Positions 2,206 through 13,287 of a stretch of 64,000 bases of DNA are shown here, piece by piece; position 1 is the first letter of the stretch, and the number at the start of each line of letters is the position of its first letter. The notes under the pieces were generated by a model. That model had not been told where the DNA came from, searched no databases, and saw only the letters and a list, made by a program, of their open reading frames with translations. The position numbers and the translations under genes are program-made. The DNA is from Caballeronia sordidicola (GTDB lineage: Bacteria > Pseudomonadota > Gammaproteobacteria > Burkholderiales > Burkholderiaceae). The stretch is taken from contig NZ_MTHB01000206.1 of the NCBI RefSeq assembly GCF_002220365.1, forward strand, positions 62,001 to 126,000, written 5' to 3'.

Positions 2206-3483
2206 TCAGGGGAGACGGAACGCCGGACGTTTCGCCCGAGCGACAGGAATTGCGCCGGTGCGGCGGATCACGTCTCGAATCCGCGCGAGCAGGTCATCGG
2301 CTTTGTAGCGGTCGTCCTGGCTGAGCCGCTCGGCCACGGTCTCGAATGCCTGGTCGATGCACAGCAGGATCGCTTGCGCCTCGGCGCGTTTCAGACCCAG
2401 GCGTTCGCCGTAGGCAACGAGTTGCCCGGGCACGGGGAAAACCTTCGATTTATTCAGGTTCAGCGCCATCCGGCCATCGAGCGACGGATAGATGCCCGTG
2501 CAGACGACATCGTAGATGGGGGAGAGCCGGCGCGGCCCAGTGGGATCGGCATAGACAATGCCGATGTTCTTCATGTGCGCGTCACCATCGCGAAGAAAAC
2601 ACGACAGCGCGACACGCTCGAACAGCCGCAGCGATTGCGCGCGGAAATCGGCGCCGGTATAGACCTCCACCGCCCGCCCGATCATCTCGTAACTGCCGCG
2701 GTATTTGTCGTTGCCGGTCAGCACGCTCATGTCCTCGAAGCCAAGCGGCGTGCCGTCCGGCGCACGATCGAAACGCGCCATGACGAACAGCAGGCCGTCG
2801 TTGGAGAGCCAGAAATCAGGCACGTCGAAACCCGCCTCGCGCGCTACCGACATGCACAGGAATTCGTTGCGGGCAATCCCCGCATAGTCGTCGCCTTCAG
2901 CCTTCACGATCACCGTGGCCAGTGGCAAGGTCGCGTGTGCGTCGAGTGTCGCCACGCTGGCTGGCACCTCAGGGGCAAGCGGCACCACCGTCTTCGGCTG
3001 CACGCCTGAAATGCCTGAGCCGAGCGCATATTTGCTCACCAGCCGCTCGAACAATTGTCCCGATGGCGACGACAGCAGCTCGTCAAGCCGCTCGCCCTCG
3101 CCCTCAGGCACCGTCTGGCCGTGCAGCGCGTAGGTGAGCCTGCCGATCTGGTTTCGCCCGGCGAGGAACAGCAGGAACATGTCGCTGGGGGTGCCGAAGC
3201 GCGCCAGCCGTTCTTCGATGATGTATCGCAGGTAACCTTCCGGGCGATTCATCGCGAACACGTTCATCAGCGCGCCGCTGCTGTAGCTCTTGCGACGCAC
3301 AGGCATGGTCAGCGACACGGCCGCGTCCGGCTCGACTTCTCCGTAGTTGAAGACGAAAGTGCTCTCCTTCGCCAGCAGACCGGCCATGCCCTGGGGCGTG
3401 TGAACGTCGAGCCGGCGGATTTTGTCGAAGAGGTTTTCCAGGTCAAACGGCGCAGCAGGCATAAGCGACGACGGCGTGCTCAT
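2206..3483 (-). CDS. hipA: HipA-family serine/threonine kinase toxin
   Basis: This is the toxin of a type II toxin-antitoxin pair; E. coli HipA phosphorylates GltX and causes growth arrest. The 425 residues match the usual HipA length. The N-terminal HipA_1 subdomain is at about 40-120 (AVSLTMPV, MNRPEGYLR). The Gly-rich loop is GISGVQPK at 157-164, the catalytic loop DAHMKN at 301-306 (D301, N306), and the metal-binding Asp D325 lies in SPIYDVV, so the kinase core looks intact. The loop reads G-I-S with one serine (S159). The ATG overlaps the hipB stop as ATGA, showing translational coupling. The target here cannot be deduced from sequence. Confidence 0.93.
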   Translation of the reverse strand: MSTPSSLMPAAPFDLENLFDKIRRLDVHTPQGMAGLLAKESTFVFNYGEVEPDAAVSLTMPVRRKSYSSGALMNVFAMNRPEGYLRYIIEERLARFGTPSDMFLLFLAGRNQIGRLTYALHGQTVPEGEGERLDELLSSPSGQLFERLVSKYALGSGISGVQPKTVVPLAPEVPASVATLDAHATLPLATVIVKAEGDDYAGIARNEFLCMSVAREAGFDVPDFWLSNDGLLFVMARFDRAPDGTPLGFEDMSVLTGNDKYRGSYEMIGRAVEVYTGADFRAQSLRLFERVALSCFLRDGDAHMKNIGIVYADPTGPRRLSPIYDVVCTGIYPSLDGRMALNLNKSKVFPVPGQLVAYGERLGLKRAEAQAILLCIDQAFETVAERLSQDDRYKADDLLARIRDVIRRTGAIPVARAKRPAFRLP

Positions 3484-3770
3484 TCGTCCTCCCTGAAGAA
3501 GGAGTCCAGATCTTCGAAGACCACAGTGTCTTTCGGACGCAGGGTGAGGTCATAGCCAAGCGCGTTCGCGATCCGGCAAAGCTCATGAAGGCCGACGTTC
3601 TGTGCGCCTTCCGCATTCGTGATTGTGCGCCGGGCCACGCCCGCGCGATCGGCCAGCGTCTGTTGACTCAAACGTCGCTCACGCCGTAGCGAGCGGAGTT
3701 CCGCTGCCACACGCTCGAAATTGCTGATGGGGTCCGTGTATTTGCGAGGGTCCGTGTATTTGCGCGTCAT
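3480..3770 (-). CDS. hipB: HipB-like XRE-family antitoxin / repressor
   Basis: This 96-residue protein has a Cro/C1-type helix-turn-helix (LSQQTLADRAGVARRTITNAE) followed by a dimerisation helix and an acidic tail (FEDLDSFFREDE). It should neutralise HipA and repress the operon. The track-style longest frame begins at TTG 3779; the first ATG, at 3770, is preferred. Residues 3-14 are a direct repeat, RKYTDP twice, from a 17-bp DNA repeat offset by 18 bp (3730-3764). No strong ribosome-binding site is visible. The start codon lies inside the most downstream of four palindromic operators. It overlaps hipA by ATGA. Confidence 0.9.
   Translation of the reverse strand: MTRKYTDPRKYTDPISNFERVAAELRSLRRERRLSQQTLADRAGVARRTITNAEGAQNVGLHELCRIANALGYDLTLRPKDTVVFEDLDSFFREDE
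3730..3764. repeat. 17-bp direct repeat in the hipB 5' end
   Basis: GGGTCCGTGTATTTGCG occurs at 3730-3746 and again at 3748-3764, offset by 18 bp, so the reading frame is kept and the peptide RKYTDP is duplicated near the HipB N-terminus. It looks like a recent slippage duplication. Confidence 0.85.
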
Positions 3771-3923
3771 GATGCGCAATTGTAGGCTTTTTTTATATTT
3801 TGCGCACTATGGTGCGCATTTTTATTGGTCGGTCGTTAGCTACTTGATTGCATTGAATTGCGCATTATGATGCGCAATTCATCAAAAATAAGCAAATTTG
3901 CGCGTTAAAACGCGCAAATTTGC
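3761..3923. promoter_or_regulatory. hipBA operator array: four TGCGC-N8-GCGCA palindromes
   Basis: Four 18-bp sites with identical architecture lie at 3761-3778, 3801-3818, 3859-3876 and 3899-3916. Their centres are 40, 58 and 40 bp apart. The third extends to a near-perfect 26-bp palindrome (3855-3880). The fourth has perfect 15-bp arms, GCAAATTTGCGCGTT and its complement, around AA (3892-3923). E. coli HipB binds four sites of the same 5-N8-5 layout (TATCC-N8-GGATA). A leftward -10-like TATAAA at 3792-3797 lies just beside the second site, so repression of hipBA is the obvious inference. The first site overlaps the hipB start. Confidence 0.85.
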
Positions 3924-3983
3924 ATTCAGAATCGGGAGACAGGATCATCCATCGGACGAACTGGGCAATCCCGTCGCCAGCTA

Positions 3984-6389
3984 TCAGCTTCCGCGATAAA
4001 GCGCCGCGCTGGCCGGTGTGGACACCGCCGGCCGAGCGGGACCGCCGTTTGCGCCCTTCACACTCTTCGCACCGGTGGACGACGAAGACGACGCAGCCGC
4101 CGGATTCGCCACCCCCGGTTCCATATACCCGGGTGCACCCTTCGCATTTTGCTTCTGCCCCGGCGGCGGAGCGGATGGGGCGGTGCGCATGTCAGCAAGC
4201 ATTTGCGTACACGGCAGCGGCTTGTTGTTACTCGGCGCGATCAACGGGATCAGCGCGGCAAACGGGTTAAGCAGACCGAGCCCGACCGCCGCCGCGCCGC
4301 GCACCGCCAGCGCACCGGCATCCACGCCTACATGCGGATCCTTGAACGTCCCCTTCACATACAGGGGCGAGCGCAACGAGAACACCCGGAAACCCTTCGT
4401 GTGCGGATGAATGTTCAGGTCCATCTCCTCGGTCTTCAGATTGACGGTACCGTCCATGTTGATCACGGCGTCGTCGGTATCGAGGGCGAACACGCGCGAC
4501 TCCAGCACCCCGTTAGTCGCGACAAAATCCGCCGCGGCGCAGTTGATCTTTACATCGTGTTTGCCGAAGAGTTTTTCATAGACCGCGTTCGCCACGTTCA
4601 GCCCCGCCGCTTCCATATACAGCCGGCTGACCGTGCCATCGGTGATCAGCGTCTTCAGTTCACCGTTCATGGTTCCAGCGAGTGCCGCCGGCGAATTGCC
4701 CGTCGCCGATAACGCCGCGTCACCGTTCACTTCACCCAGCGCTGACTGCATCGTCTTGACGGTCGGCAGCAACTGCTTGAGTTTCAGATGCCGCGCCGAG
4801 GTCGAGAAGCGGCCCTGGAGCGGCTCCTTGCTACCATCGAGGTGAATAGTCGACGATAGCGTGCCGCCCGCCACGCCGAATGACAGCGGTTCGAACGACA
4901 GCACGCCGTCCGTCATCACCACGTGCGTATAGAGGTTGCTGATCGGCAGCGCCGGGTCCTTGATGATCTTGCGGCCGGTGAACTTGACGTCGGCATCGAT
5001 CGCCTTCCATCGATCCGTCTTGAACTCCTCGGTCGGCAGGGCCTTCGACGACGGTTGTTTCTCCGTGTCTCCGCGTTTCGCTTTGCTCGCGTTCGAATCG
5101 GCGCCGATGATGGGTGCGAGATCGGAGAACTGCAGCAGGTTCGATACAAGTTCGCCCGACAGCAACGGCCGCGGCTTGCGTCCGACGAACGTCAGCGAGC
5201 CGTTCAGGTCGCTGCCGCCCACGCGTCCGGTGAAATTTTCATACCTGAAGACATTGCCGTCAGCCTTGAACTGGCCGACGAGCCGCCCTTCCGTTGCATA
5301 CGGCGGCGTCGCCGGCAGCGTCACGCCAACGATCGGATACAAATGCTCGAGGCTCACACCCTGCAGCCAAAGCCGCAAGTCGAGCGCAGCGAGATGGGCC
5401 GGATCCGTCACGGTCCCGACAAACGCAATATGCGTATCGCCGATACGAACATCAGCCTGCACGGGGAACGGACGCATGGCGTCCTGCAGCGCGAGCACGC
5501 CGCCGACCTTGCCGTCGCCGGACACCGCCACGCTGTTGTATTTACCCTTCACCGACCAGCCTATGCCATAAGGCGGCACGGGCGGTTTAGGCCCTTCCTT
5601 CGTGGTAATGCTGGTGTTTGCAGAAACGCTTGCCGGGTTCGGCGCGCTCGCGTTTTCGGCAGCAGCGGCCGACGCGGCGGATGCAGCGGCGGCTTCCGAT
5701 GCTGCGGCCTTATCGACTTGCTGGTTCAGCTTGCTAGCACCGCTCTTGCCGACCATCTGGGCCGACGATTTCTGCGATGCCGCCTCCTGCTGCTTCATCA
5801 CATCGCCGATGGGAACCATCTGGCCAAGCGTATTCACGACGGCCTGCATGTCCGCTTTCGTGATCTCGTCCGCGTAGGCAATAGTGCCCTTGTCCAGCGC
5901 GATGTCATGCAGTTGAAGGTTCCACGCCGACGGTTCGCTCGACTGCTTGAACTTGAACGTCCAGTTATCGCGGTTGTCCTTGAGGCGTTCCAGATCGACC
6001 GAGGGATTCACCAGGTTGATCGATGGAATCACGATGTCATGCGCGAGCAGCGGCAGGATCCCGACCTGGAAATCGATCTCGTCCAGGGTCGCGAAAAACT
6101 TCTGTTTGGTCCAGTCGGGATTCGCGACCGTGATTTTTTCCGCCGAGAATCGCGGCCACGGGACCCAGCGGCGCCAGCCCGTTTCTCCGGGCGGGCGTTG
6201 CCAGCCGACCTTCAGGTCGCCCGTAATCTCGAACTGCCGGCCGATGGCCTGCGAGACTTTATCGTCGACCCAGGGGCGGGCCCGGTTCCAGTCGAAGGTC
6301 AGGAAAACGATCACCAGCACAGCGATCAGGACAATCAGAACCGCGATGATCCAGGCGACTGTTTTTCCGATTTTCCGGCCAAGCGCCAT
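3984..6389 (-). CDS. AsmA family protein
   Basis: The 801-residue protein has a single N-terminal membrane anchor (about residues 7-30) followed by a long periplasmic region, the AsmA/TamB-like layout now linked to bridge-like phospholipid transport to the outer membrane. AsmA features include the LKVGW..P start region, FSAEKITVANPDW and a C-terminal AsmA_2 stretch with the TVNLKTEEMDL motif. An Ala/Ser-rich low-complexity insert lies around residues 235-290, and the C-terminus is Ala/Pro/Ser-rich. The start at 6389 is chosen over an upstream in-frame ATG (6461) because GAGGGAG precedes it and the membrane anchor follows at once. Its exact lipid role is unknown. Confidence 0.9.
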   Translation of the reverse strand: MALGRKIGKTVAWIIAVLIVLIAVLVIVFLTFDWNRARPWVDDKVSQAIGRQFEITGDLKVGWQRPPGETGWRRWVPWPRFSAEKITVANPDWTKQKFFATLDEIDFQVGILPLLAHDIVIPSINLVNPSVDLERLKDNRDNWTFKFKQSSEPSAWNLQLHDIALDKGTIAYADEITKADMQAVVNTLGQMVPIGDVMKQQEAASQKSSAQMVGKSGASKLNQQVDKAAASEAAAASAASAAAAENASAPNPASVSANTSITTKEGPKPPVPPYGIGWSVKGKYNSVAVSGDGKVGGVLALQDAMRPFPVQADVRIGDTHIAFVGTVTDPAHLAALDLRLWLQGVSLEHLYPIVGVTLPATPPYATEGRLVGQFKADGNVFRYENFTGRVGGSDLNGSLTFVGRKPRPLLSGELVSNLLQFSDLAPIIGADSNASKAKRGDTEKQPSSKALPTEEFKTDRWKAIDADVKFTGRKIIKDPALPISNLYTHVVMTDGVLSFEPLSFGVAGGTLSSTIHLDGSKEPLQGRFSTSARHLKLKQLLPTVKTMQSALGEVNGDAALSATGNSPAALAGTMNGELKTLITDGTVSRLYMEAAGLNVANAVYEKLFGKHDVKINCAAADFVATNGVLESRVFALDTDDAVINMDGTVNLKTEEMDLNIHPHTKGFRVFSLRSPLYVKGTFKDPHVGVDAGALAVRGAAAVGLGLLNPFAALIPLIAPSNNKPLPCTQMLADMRTAPSAPPPGQKQNAKGAPGYMEPGVANPAAASSSSSTGAKSVKGANGGPARPAVSTPASAALYRGS

Positions 6390-6495
6390 AGTGGCTCCCT
6401 CTATTTTATTTGAAACACCGAGCAGCACGTCGCGTGCCCGGCGATGATACCGGCAAGCCATGCCGGGCAGGACCTTGCCCGATCAGGGCTCACAC

Positions 6496-10803: not shown

Positions 10804-13287
10804 TCAGTTCTGCGGTGCCGGCGGTGCCGGCGGTGTCGGCGGTGTCGGATTAAGCAGTTTGCCGGCGCCGGGTTCGGTTTCGGTGGCTTCGGCCCTGAAC
10901 ACCTTCGGCAGCGAAAAATGGAACGCGGCGCCCTCACCTTCTCGGCCCTCGGCCCAGGTTCTGCCGTCGTGCCTCTCGATGATCCGGCGCACGTTCGCGA
11001 GGCCAATGCCGGTGCCGTCGAACTCTTCAGCGCGATGCAGGCGCTGGAACACGCCGAACAGTTTGTTCACGTATTTCATATTGAAACCGACGCCATTGTC
11101 CCGCACGCTGACAATGTATTCATCGGCTGTCGATTGGGCCGACAACTCGATTCTCGCTGATTCCCGTGTACGCGTATATTTCACCGCGTTCGAGAACAGA
11201 TTACGCAACGCGATCTGCAGGAACGCCGGATCGCCGGTCACCGTTGGCAGCTCCGGAATAATCCATTCCACCTTTCGGTTCGCTGTCTCGGCGCCAAATT
11301 CCTGCGCGACCGATCTCACCAACTGGTTCAGGTCGACGCTCACCGGACGCAGCGCGGCACGGCCCATTTGCGAAAACGTGAGCAGATCGTCGACAAGCAC
11401 ACCGGCGAAACGCGCCGACTCGAGCATGTTGTGGAGGAAGCGCTTGCTGCGCTCGGACAGTTTGTCGCCATCGCTTTCCCGCAGCAAATCCCCATAGCCA
11501 GCGATATGCCGCAGCGGTGCGCGCAAGTCGTGCGAAACGGAATACGAAAACGCCTCAAGCTCCTTGTTCGTGCGACGCAGTTCGTTCGCGAGCTCCGCCA
11601 GTCCTTCCGCGTGGCGCAGCACGATGTTGAGCATGCCCAGCCGAAATTCACCCGCAATCTCCAACTCCACCGCGTGCCAGCGAATCGAGCGGTTGCGCAC
11701 AGTCTCGAGCCACGGCGCAAAATCCTTGCGTGGTGCCACGCTGCCGTTCTGGCTCGACACGCGTTTGACCGGCTCACCCGCCCATGTGATCGTGCGCGTG
11801 GTTTCGGGACGGAACCAGATGACGTAGTTGCGAAAAATCTGTGAGATTGGCACGGCCAGGATGCCGCTCGCGGTGTCCGTGTGACGCGACGCACGCGGCC
11901 ACGCTTGCGACAGCGCGTCGGTTGCATAGACGCCCGACGTGCTGGACGACAGCCACTGCGAGAGCGCGAGCACAGTGTCCTGGTCCGGCGTGGAACCTAT
12001 CAGCGTTGCTTTCCCGTCCACCACGATCGCGGCGCCCGTCGATCCGGCGAAACACAGCAAATCGTCAGGCGCCGATTTCAGAGCGGAAAGATAGTCGTCT
12101 TGCTCGGCCAGGGAGCCCATCAGACGCGACATCGTGCGTCGTAACCTTAGCAAATACGCCGTCTCGGCCCGCTCCTCCTTCGCCTCGATCTGCAACGAAA
12201 CGATCTGCCCAAGATGCTCGATAGCGACGCGCACCTCGAACGGCACGAGACGCGCGTCATGGTCATGGCATGAAATCAGGCCCCACAGCTGTCCGCGCAC
12301 GACCAGCGACACCGACATCGACGCATACGTGCCCATGTTGCGCATGTACTCGAGATGGATTGGCGAAAAGCTGCGCAGCGCGGCATAAGAGAGGTCGGTG
12401 GGGCGGCCGGTCGCGGGGTTCATGGCGGGTACGAGTCGCGCGGCCTTCGCCTGCGCGTTCGCGACCAGCCTCACGCGTTGCTTCACATACAAAGCGCGTG
12501 CCTGGCGGGGGATATCGGAAGCGGGGAACAACTGGTTCAGGAACGACGCGTACCCGTCTTCGATATGCTCTGACAGCACTTGGCTGCGGCCCTCGTCGTC
12601 GAATTTGTAGAGCAGCACGCGGCCGAAACCCGTCATCGCGCGCACTTCTCGCACAGCGAGGTCACCGAGTTCGGTCAAGGTCTCAACGTCCTGCAGGCTG
12701 CGCGTGAATGTGCGCACCAGGGGATACATTGATGCAAACACGTCTGCATTCGAATGCCGTGCAACTTCGAGTTCAACAATCAGGTTGCCGTCGTGCCGAT
12801 GCATCGTGATGTCGAGTTCAGGACCGTCTACAGCCGCGGCCAAATGGTCCTGCACACCTTCGCGCGGGCTGAAGAACGGGTTCTCCATCACGCCGACATA
12901 GAGCGGCGTTTCGTCCAACATGGCCGTGGCCGCGGCATGTGCGACTCGCGCCGCAGCGGCCGCGCCGATCACCACGTCCACCGGCTCGCCCAGCAATTGC
13001 TCTACTGGACAGCCCACGAGCGTCCCGACATTTTCGCTGGCCTGGATAATGGTAAGCGTGCTGGAGAGGCACAGCAGATAACCGTGCGGCTGGATACCGC
13101 CGGGAATATGGATTGGTTCGGCGTCGCACTGCGCATTCGCCGCGCCCGCCGTAAATGCCCGGTGGGCCGGCTCTGCGCCGGGTGACGCAGGTGTAGTTCC
13201 GTCCACATCCGGATTCCACGCATCGCGATCATCCTGCGCGCGCATGGCGGCCGGATCCGGCGACACTGGCTCTGGCCCGCTGCTCAT
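10804..13287 (-). CDS. bphP: Bacteriophytochrome histidine kinase
   Basis: A red/far-red photoreceptor of about 827 residues: PAS-GAF-PHY photosensor, then HisKA and HATPase. The likely biliverdin-attaching Cys is C54 (NAQCDAEPIHIPG). The GAF motif PASDIP is at 255-260 and SPIHLEYMRNMG follows near 308. The kinase has H586 in SHDLRAPL, NLFSNAVKYT and DNGVGF. In the PHY tongue the usual PRxSF reads PRKDF (519-523). The C-terminus ends in a Pro-rich tail encoded by 9-bp repeats. Start 13287 follows a GGGGGG tract and overlaps the bphO stop as ATGA; an upstream ATG at 13302 is the alternative. Confidence 0.94.
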   Translation of the reverse strand: MSSGPEPVSPDPAAMRAQDDRDAWNPDVDGTTPASPGAEPAHRAFTAGAANAQCDAEPIHIPGGIQPHGYLLCLSSTLTIIQASENVGTLVGCPVEQLLGEPVDVVIGAAAAARVAHAAATAMLDETPLYVGVMENPFFSPREGVQDHLAAAVDGPELDITMHRHDGNLIVELEVARHSNADVFASMYPLVRTFTRSLQDVETLTELGDLAVREVRAMTGFGRVLLYKFDDEGRSQVLSEHIEDGYASFLNQLFPASDIPRQARALYVKQRVRLVANAQAKAARLVPAMNPATGRPTDLSYAALRSFSPIHLEYMRNMGTYASMSVSLVVRGQLWGLISCHDHDARLVPFEVRVAIEHLGQIVSLQIEAKEERAETAYLLRLRRTMSRLMGSLAEQDDYLSALKSAPDDLLCFAGSTGAAIVVDGKATLIGSTPDQDTVLALSQWLSSSTSGVYATDALSQAWPRASRHTDTASGILAVPISQIFRNYVIWFRPETTRTITWAGEPVKRVSSQNGSVAPRKDFAPWLETVRNRSIRWHAVELEIAGEFRLGMLNIVLRHAEGLAELANELRRTNKELEAFSYSVSHDLRAPLRHIAGYGDLLRESDGDKLSERSKRFLHNMLESARFAGVLVDDLLTFSQMGRAALRPVSVDLNQLVRSVAQEFGAETANRKVEWIIPELPTVTGDPAFLQIALRNLFSNAVKYTRTRESARIELSAQSTADEYIVSVRDNGVGFNMKYVNKLFGVFQRLHRAEEFDGTGIGLANVRRIIERHDGRTWAEGREGEGAAFHFSLPKVFRAEATETEPGAGKLLNPTPPTPPAPPAPQN

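Follow-up and report, generated by a model that had tools for sequence, protein, structure and literature searches.

Organization of the locus

The window, i.e. the whole stretch of 64,000 nucleotides analysed here, carries on its minus strand an asmA-family gene (6461-3984), an intergenic stretch, and an operon of hipB-like (3770-3480) and hipA-like (3483-2206) genes, in that order. Four exact TGCGC-N8-GCGCA palindromes, O1 to O4, lie between asmA and this operon with spacings of 40, 58 and 40 bp. An earlier note, made from the sequence alone, had placed such sites at 3761, 3801, 3859 and 3899 and the innermost one over the hipB start codon; both statements are borne out, the ATG (3770-3768, minus strand) lying inside O1. 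The features of the locus are as follows:

3984..6461, minus strand: asmA-family gene, upstream of hipB on the same strand, with 67 nt between its stop codon and O4
3892..3923, minus strand: hairpin resembling a terminator, downstream of asmA, with 14 pairs and a 4-nt loop; O4 lies within it
3899..3916, minus strand: O4, TGCGC-N8-GCGCA, the distal operator, enclosed by the longer hairpin
3882..3891, minus strand: T-rich tail of the hairpin, TTATTTTTGA on this strand
3859..3876, minus strand: O3, TGCGC-N8-GCGCA, paired with O4 at 40 bp
3801..3818, minus strand: O2, TGCGC-N8-GCGCA, covering the expected -35 position, with no good -35 hexamer
3779..3784, minus strand: predicted -10 box TACAAT (from sequence; TAnnnT here in 26 of 28 arrays)
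3761..3778, minus strand: O1, TGCGC-N8-GCGCA, including the hipB ATG and abutting the predicted -10 box
3480..3770, minus strand: hipB-like antitoxin gene, 96 aa, HTH_3/HTH_31
2206..3483, minus strand: hipA-like kinase gene, 425 aa, Couple_hipA and HipA_C, overlapping hipB by 4 nt

With PF01381, PF13560, PF13657 and PF07804 all above cut-off, the two downstream genes have the order of HipBA, namely: an HTH antitoxin gene, then a kinase gene with an N-terminal Couple_hipA and a C-terminal HipA_C domain. Both products are related in sequence to HipB and HipA of solved structure. The HipB profile matches E. coli HipB with an E-value of 0.002, other HTH proteins scoring better, and hhalign gives a probability of 93.9% for the same pair, while a plain BLASTP comparison of the two returned a spurious 5-residue match only. 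The HipA profile matches E. coli HipA at 2e-9, and its best matches are 7ab3 chain C (a HipA_C protein, 1e-17) and HipT(Lp) (7e-16). The NCBIfam HipB-type models remain below their cut-offs (42.8 vs. 71.65 bits and 22.8 vs. 79 bits) and none of the NCBIfam models matched HipA. Thus, the operon is described here as HipBA-like and not as an E. coli-type orthologue. Genome G000 contains seven HipA_C loci in all, the six further ones being L016-L021; the HTH proteins beside L018-L021 have recognition helices that, judged by eye, are quite different. An Rfam search of positions 3300-4400 matched no known RNA family.

Clustering of the sites

In 3000 shuffles of the local 284 bp, 2978 contained no exact site and 22 contained one, compared to the four observed. 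Shuffling the whole window 60 times gave a mean of 0.9 exact sites and never two together; the window itself has one further exact site, at 12699. If one mismatch is allowed, 15 sites are found in the window vs. 17.2 in shuffles, i.e. there is no enrichment, and the bare motif recurs at 157 places in the 9.75-Mb genome. It is thus the clustering, and not the bare motif, that is improbable. The earlier note had held random scatter through the genome, without relation to hipBA, to speak against its proposal: the bare motif is indeed scattered, but exact pairs occur only beside hipB among the 101 genomes surveyed below. A chance cluster is ruled out by the shuffles together with the conservation of the array.

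Requiring two A/T bases on each side of the motif leaves nine places in the genome, four of which are the array and five of which fall within open frames of 155-533 codons, counted stop to stop. A wider HipB regulon was considered and, on this A/T-flanked minority of the 157 bare matches, rejected, since the five other sites lie inside open frames. The site on contig C55 that is identical to O1 lies, as read by eye, within what we take to be the coding sequence of PEP carboxykinase.

Conservation of the array with hipB

A HipB protein search of 101 genomes identified the window's own gene and 12 congeneric orthologues with at least 81% identity; some HipB match, weaker HTH matches included, is present in 34 of the 101. 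Exact site pairs with a spacing of 40 or 41 bp were found in 7 of the 13 orthologue-carrying genomes vs. 0 of the 88 others, and all 11 instances in these seven genomes are beside a hipB orthologue. This part of the proposal, namely operators of HipB type that have a half-site of their own, is supported: the array follows hipB. A survey of 399 genomes of the order, which included one other member of the genus, returned the own genome and a lone pair in G437.

In order to obtain a larger set, named genomes were scanned with two HipA peptide patterns, one of them DGDAHMK, which yielded 28 loci labelled Caballeronia, Burkholderia sp., Paraburkholderia or Trinickia. The comparison set (n = 30) consists of the own locus, two relatives' loci and 27 named loci; L092, at a contig end, and L025-L031 and L033-L035, which repeat named loci, were left out. 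The search upstream of hipB homologues that the earlier note had suggested finds the full four-site array (at most three mismatches per site) at 28 of these 30 orthologous loci: 13 in the Caballeronia group (8 Caballeronia, 2 Burkholderia sp. and 3 others) and 15 in Paraburkholderia. The arrays of L081 (Paraburkholderia) and L097 (Trinickia) are partial. It should be noted that the loci are related, so that counts over them are not independent. O1 and O4 are exact in 24 arrays each, O2 in 16 and O3 in 13, the latter two being often degenerate. In L094 (Caballeronia sordidicola LMG 22029), O2 reads TTTGAGC...GCTCAAA, with both arms altered alike and 12-bp arms.

The O1-O2 spacing is 40 bp in 18 arrays and 41 bp in 10, and the O3-O4 spacing is 40 bp in 23 and 41 bp in 5; this tightness is partly built in, as the array finder permitted pair spacings of 38-42 and 38-43 bp only, although a freer listing of sites gave the same pair spacing. 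The O2-O3 spacing varies from 45 to 69 bp. The O2-O3 gaps cluster at 47-48, 58 and 69 bp, approximately one helical turn apart, and helical phasing between the two pairs is possible (gap resultant 0.69, among related loci). The pairing at 40 bp described in the earlier note stands, whereas its placing of the paired dimers on the same helix face is overstated: at 10.5 bp per turn, 40 bp is 3.8 turns, or ~70 degrees off the same face. Nor do the outer sites have the longer palindromic arms, as had been claimed; the contiguous perfect arms, including the five core pairs, measure 6, 5, 10 and 12 bp in O1, O2, O3 and O4, respectively.

The array accompanies hipBA through at least five gene neighbourhoods. 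By Pfam, the gene upstream of the array is AsmA in the window and L074, an AMP-binding ligase in L079 and L082, IlvD/Edd in L084, a glycosyltransferase in L087 and L090, and a response regulator in L080; the remaining asmA and AMP-ligase loci were named by common C-terminal residues only.

The recognition-helix residues R47 R48 T49 and T51 N52 A53 E54 (RRT-TNAE) are invariant in 30 of 30 HipBs; hipB was located in the scripts by this motif, and no locus was dropped for its absence. E. coli HipB has Q and A at the positions of the two arginines, a comparison that had also been proposed, and these arginines may read the TGCGC half-site. In HipA, SG-QPK, IVK, DGDAHMKN and D325, which we take to be the catalytic motifs of HipA, are likewise invariant in 30 of 30 and align to solved HipT-type chains; the kinase is presumably toxic. 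The window HipB has a tandem duplication at 3730-3764 (18 bp, 1.9 copies, 100% match) that adds six residues to its N-terminus and is absent from the 29 further HipBs compared.

The predicted hipB promoter

The promoter scan did not pick up the TACAAT box, as there is no -35 element to go with it, and reported no minus-strand sigma-70 pair at this place; by sequence, the -35 position falls within O2 and holds no good hexamer. In 26 of the 28 arrays, a TAnnnT box abuts O1 or has O1's first T in common with it. The box is TATAAT with its last T common to O1, which is the E. coli register, in 11 of the 15 Paraburkholderia arrays, while in the window TACAAT abuts O1. The hipB ATG is 7-8 nt downstream of the box. 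From the usual distance between a -10 box and the transcript start, transcription is predicted to begin ~0-3 nt from the ATG, and the hipB mRNA should be leaderless or nearly so.

A terminator-like hairpin around O4

The hairpin enclosing O4, a feature that the earlier note had overlooked, has the structure of an intrinsic terminator: 14 pairs, 7 of them G-C, followed by the tail TTATTTTTGA, 67 nt past the asmA stop. A pattern scan of the stretch found three terminator-like patterns, two of them on the plus strand, against a mean of 1.3 per shuffle. The RNA fold of the O4 hairpin has an energy of -21.9 kcal/mol and a z-score of -5.6. O2 in the window, too, is more stably folded than its composition would predict (z -4.4), so that z-scores of hairpins prove nothing by themselves; what carries the argument is the length of the arms and their covariation. 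On the plus strand, O2 (3801-3818) is followed by TTTTTATTGG and scores terminator-like.

Covariation was analysed in the 21 loci where asmA (13) or an AMP-ligase gene (8) ends 15-130 nt upstream. For the ten outer O4 pairs beyond the core, 80.0% of cells are paired vs. 52.7% when shuffled, and outer-arm covariation is 0.680 vs. 0.219, with 0 of 500 shuffles as high and slid controls at or below 0.202. O3, taken as a control in the same 21 loci, gives 40.5% paired both observed and shuffled. The O4 arm sequences beyond the core differ among loci, with complementarity kept. When eight outer pairs are counted, 73 of 104 cells are paired in the Caballeronia group (45.5 expected) and 70 of 120 in Paraburkholderia (47.2 expected), while the outer pairs of O1-O3 are near expectation, the largest excess being 41 vs. 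35.8.

At least six of the eight outer pairs are formed at O4 in 15 of the 28 arrays, compared to 2, 1 and 1 arrays for O1, O2 and O3. By neighbourhood, such long O4 arms are found at 8 of the 13 asmA loci, at 7 of the 8 loci with a close AMP-ligase gene and at none of the 7 others, a group that includes L079, whose AMP-ligase gene ends 246 nt upstream; the difference (15/21 vs. 0/7) gives a Fisher value of 0.0014 with relatedness ignored. The AMP-ligase neighbourhood with long arms is in Paraburkholderia, and, judged from gene neighbourhoods alone, the long arms may have had separate origins.

The T-rich tail is less uniform. The 15 nt that follow the O4 core contain at least 7 T in 12 of 13 Caballeronia-group loci, the exception being L074, and in 3 of 8 AMP-ligase loci. 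In L074, a separate GC-rich terminator is present, the O4 arms are short and few T follow; L084 likewise combines a separate terminator with short arms, and in L075 a separate terminator occurs alongside long arms. Short arms are found at 6 of the 21 asmA and close AMP-ligase loci (L070, L071, L073, L074, L076 and L091), with a strong separate terminator in L074 only. In L090 and L087, a same-strand glycosyltransferase gene ends ~82 and ~125 nt, respectively, before O4; the arms are short and no other terminator was found at either locus. Mismatches within the long arms comprise 4 G-U and 4 A-C, giving no sign that the RNA is selected. From its sequence features, O4 is best read as a predicted operator nested in an intrinsic terminator. 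Our search of the open-licence literature brought up neither this array nor any HipB operator that lies within a terminator.

Relation to known systems

The window array is a sibling of that of E. coli hipBA, whose operator half-site is given as TATCC-N8-GGATA in excerpts of two papers (PMC3376134, PMC3920265). The E. coli K-12 sequence has four exact TATCC-N8-GGATA sites at -134, -106, -67 and -39 from the ATG, with spacings of 28, 39 and 28 bp, and its TATAAT overlaps O1 by one base. Both systems thus have four 5-N8-5 palindromes in two pairs upstream of hipB, a -10 box at O1, and an HTH antitoxin gene ahead of a HipA kinase gene. They differ in half-site (TATCC vs. TGCGC), in spacing (28/39/28 vs. 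40/58/40), in the upstream gene, and in the position of O1, which begins 39 bp before the ATG in E. coli and lies over it here. E. coli HipB also has a C-terminal tryptophan, whereas the window HipB lacks it and ends in REDE.

Other HipB-type systems were compared by published description. In the excerpt consulted, Caulobacter HipBA1 and HipBA2 have several palindromic operators as well, three per hipBA promoter (PMC8545095) vs. four here; this comparison is by description, not sequence. Legionella HipBST, as described in part of its report, resembles the window in that sites of 18 nt recur ahead of the HTH antitoxin gene, but has three of them, with 6-nt repeats and 53-bp gaps, and its kinase is split into HipS and HipT (PMC10653801). 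The TGCGC half-site is new within the open-licence literature consulted. The earlier note had regarded a new half-site as remarkable in itself; going by these partial descriptions, the E. coli and Legionella (6-nt repeat) operators differ from one another too, and since HipB-type systems differ in their operators as a rule, a new half-site is expected variation. For O4, the closest parallel that we found is in the DNA uptake sequences of Neisseria and Pasteurellaceae, which an excerpt describes as co-opted for intrinsic terminator stems (PMC1852404). There, too, a motif with another job makes the stem, but uptake sequences are genome-wide repeats, while O4 is one repressor's operator at one locus.

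A model for the array

Computation directly gives the four sites, shows that they are conserved with hipB, and yields the pair geometry and the covariation of the O4 arms. On this basis, the four palindromes are very probably docking sites of the operon's own repressor, and a private HipB autorepressor array is a well-supported prediction. From these we infer HipB binding, repression, cooperativity, the transcript start and termination as follows. Bound at O1 and O2, HipB dimers or HipA-HipB complexes would cover the -10 box, the transcript start and the -35 region, and thereby block RNA polymerase; O3 and O4 would form a second pair that strengthens repression, as suggested by E. coli. On the minus strand, O4 would be the GC-rich heart of the longer hairpin with its T-rich tail, which may end asmA transcription and insulate hipBA from asmA read-through. 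We assign a probability of roughly 78% to this model as a whole, i.e. HipB autorepression through two 40-bp operator pairs, with O4 doubling as the asmA terminator.

Two other readings concern what the sites do at hipB. The earlier note saw possible translational or transcription-elongation control in the fact that O1 overlaps the start codon, and this overlap is indeed present in all 28 complete arrays. The -10 box abutting O1 explains it better: with TAnnnT at O1 in 26 of 28 arrays, the transcript would start inside O1 and leave the upstream half of the palindrome outside the mRNA, and RNA folds weakly at O1 (z -1.3). Since the predicted start is within ~3 nt of the ATG, O1 would act on DNA and not on translation, and we regard such control of hipB as very unlikely. 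That a regulator other than HipB binds the sites is, in our estimate, slightly less probable still; the neighbours are ordinary chromosomal genes, as it would allow, but the array moves with hipBA across at least five neighbourhoods, exact pairs are absent from the 88 genomes without a hipB orthologue, and the A/T-flanked copies elsewhere in the genome, five in number, sit in open frames.

A more serious challenge is that the O4 arms are an extended DNA palindrome and no terminator. Such a palindrome could strengthen HipB binding, form a cruciform, or stem from a quasi-palindrome that replication has made perfect by template switching. The equal rarity of G-U and A-C mismatches, which leaves no RNA signature, is consistent with it, as are the few T after the core at 5 of 8 AMP-ligase loci and the short arms at 6 of 21 asmA and AMP-ligase loci and at L087 and L090. 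However, the O4 arms vary while their complementarity stays, unlike a protein site; O1-O3, as palindromic at the core, show no such perfection of the arms; and long arms are confined to loci where asmA or the AMP-ligase gene ends close upstream, on the Fisher comparison above, which ignores relatedness. We therefore consider an extended DNA palindrome possible but doubtful. Going beyond O4 as operator and terminator in one, HipB on O4 might alter asmA termination, as a roadblock or as an aid, and asmA read-through might dislodge HipB and loosen hipBA repression, so that the antitoxin would sense upstream transcription, the fusion having arisen separately with asmA and with the AMP-ligase gene; we offer this as a speculation that is probably wrong.

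Taken together, the 28 HipB arrays form a natural series with a fixed pair spacing, a variable gap between the two pairs and constant recognition-helix residues; the series is suited to tests of HipB cooperativity against operator geometry. The predicted nesting of an operator in a terminator is the point of interest that is added to the array: if it is true, the operators of a repressor can be put to use by a neighbouring gene as well.
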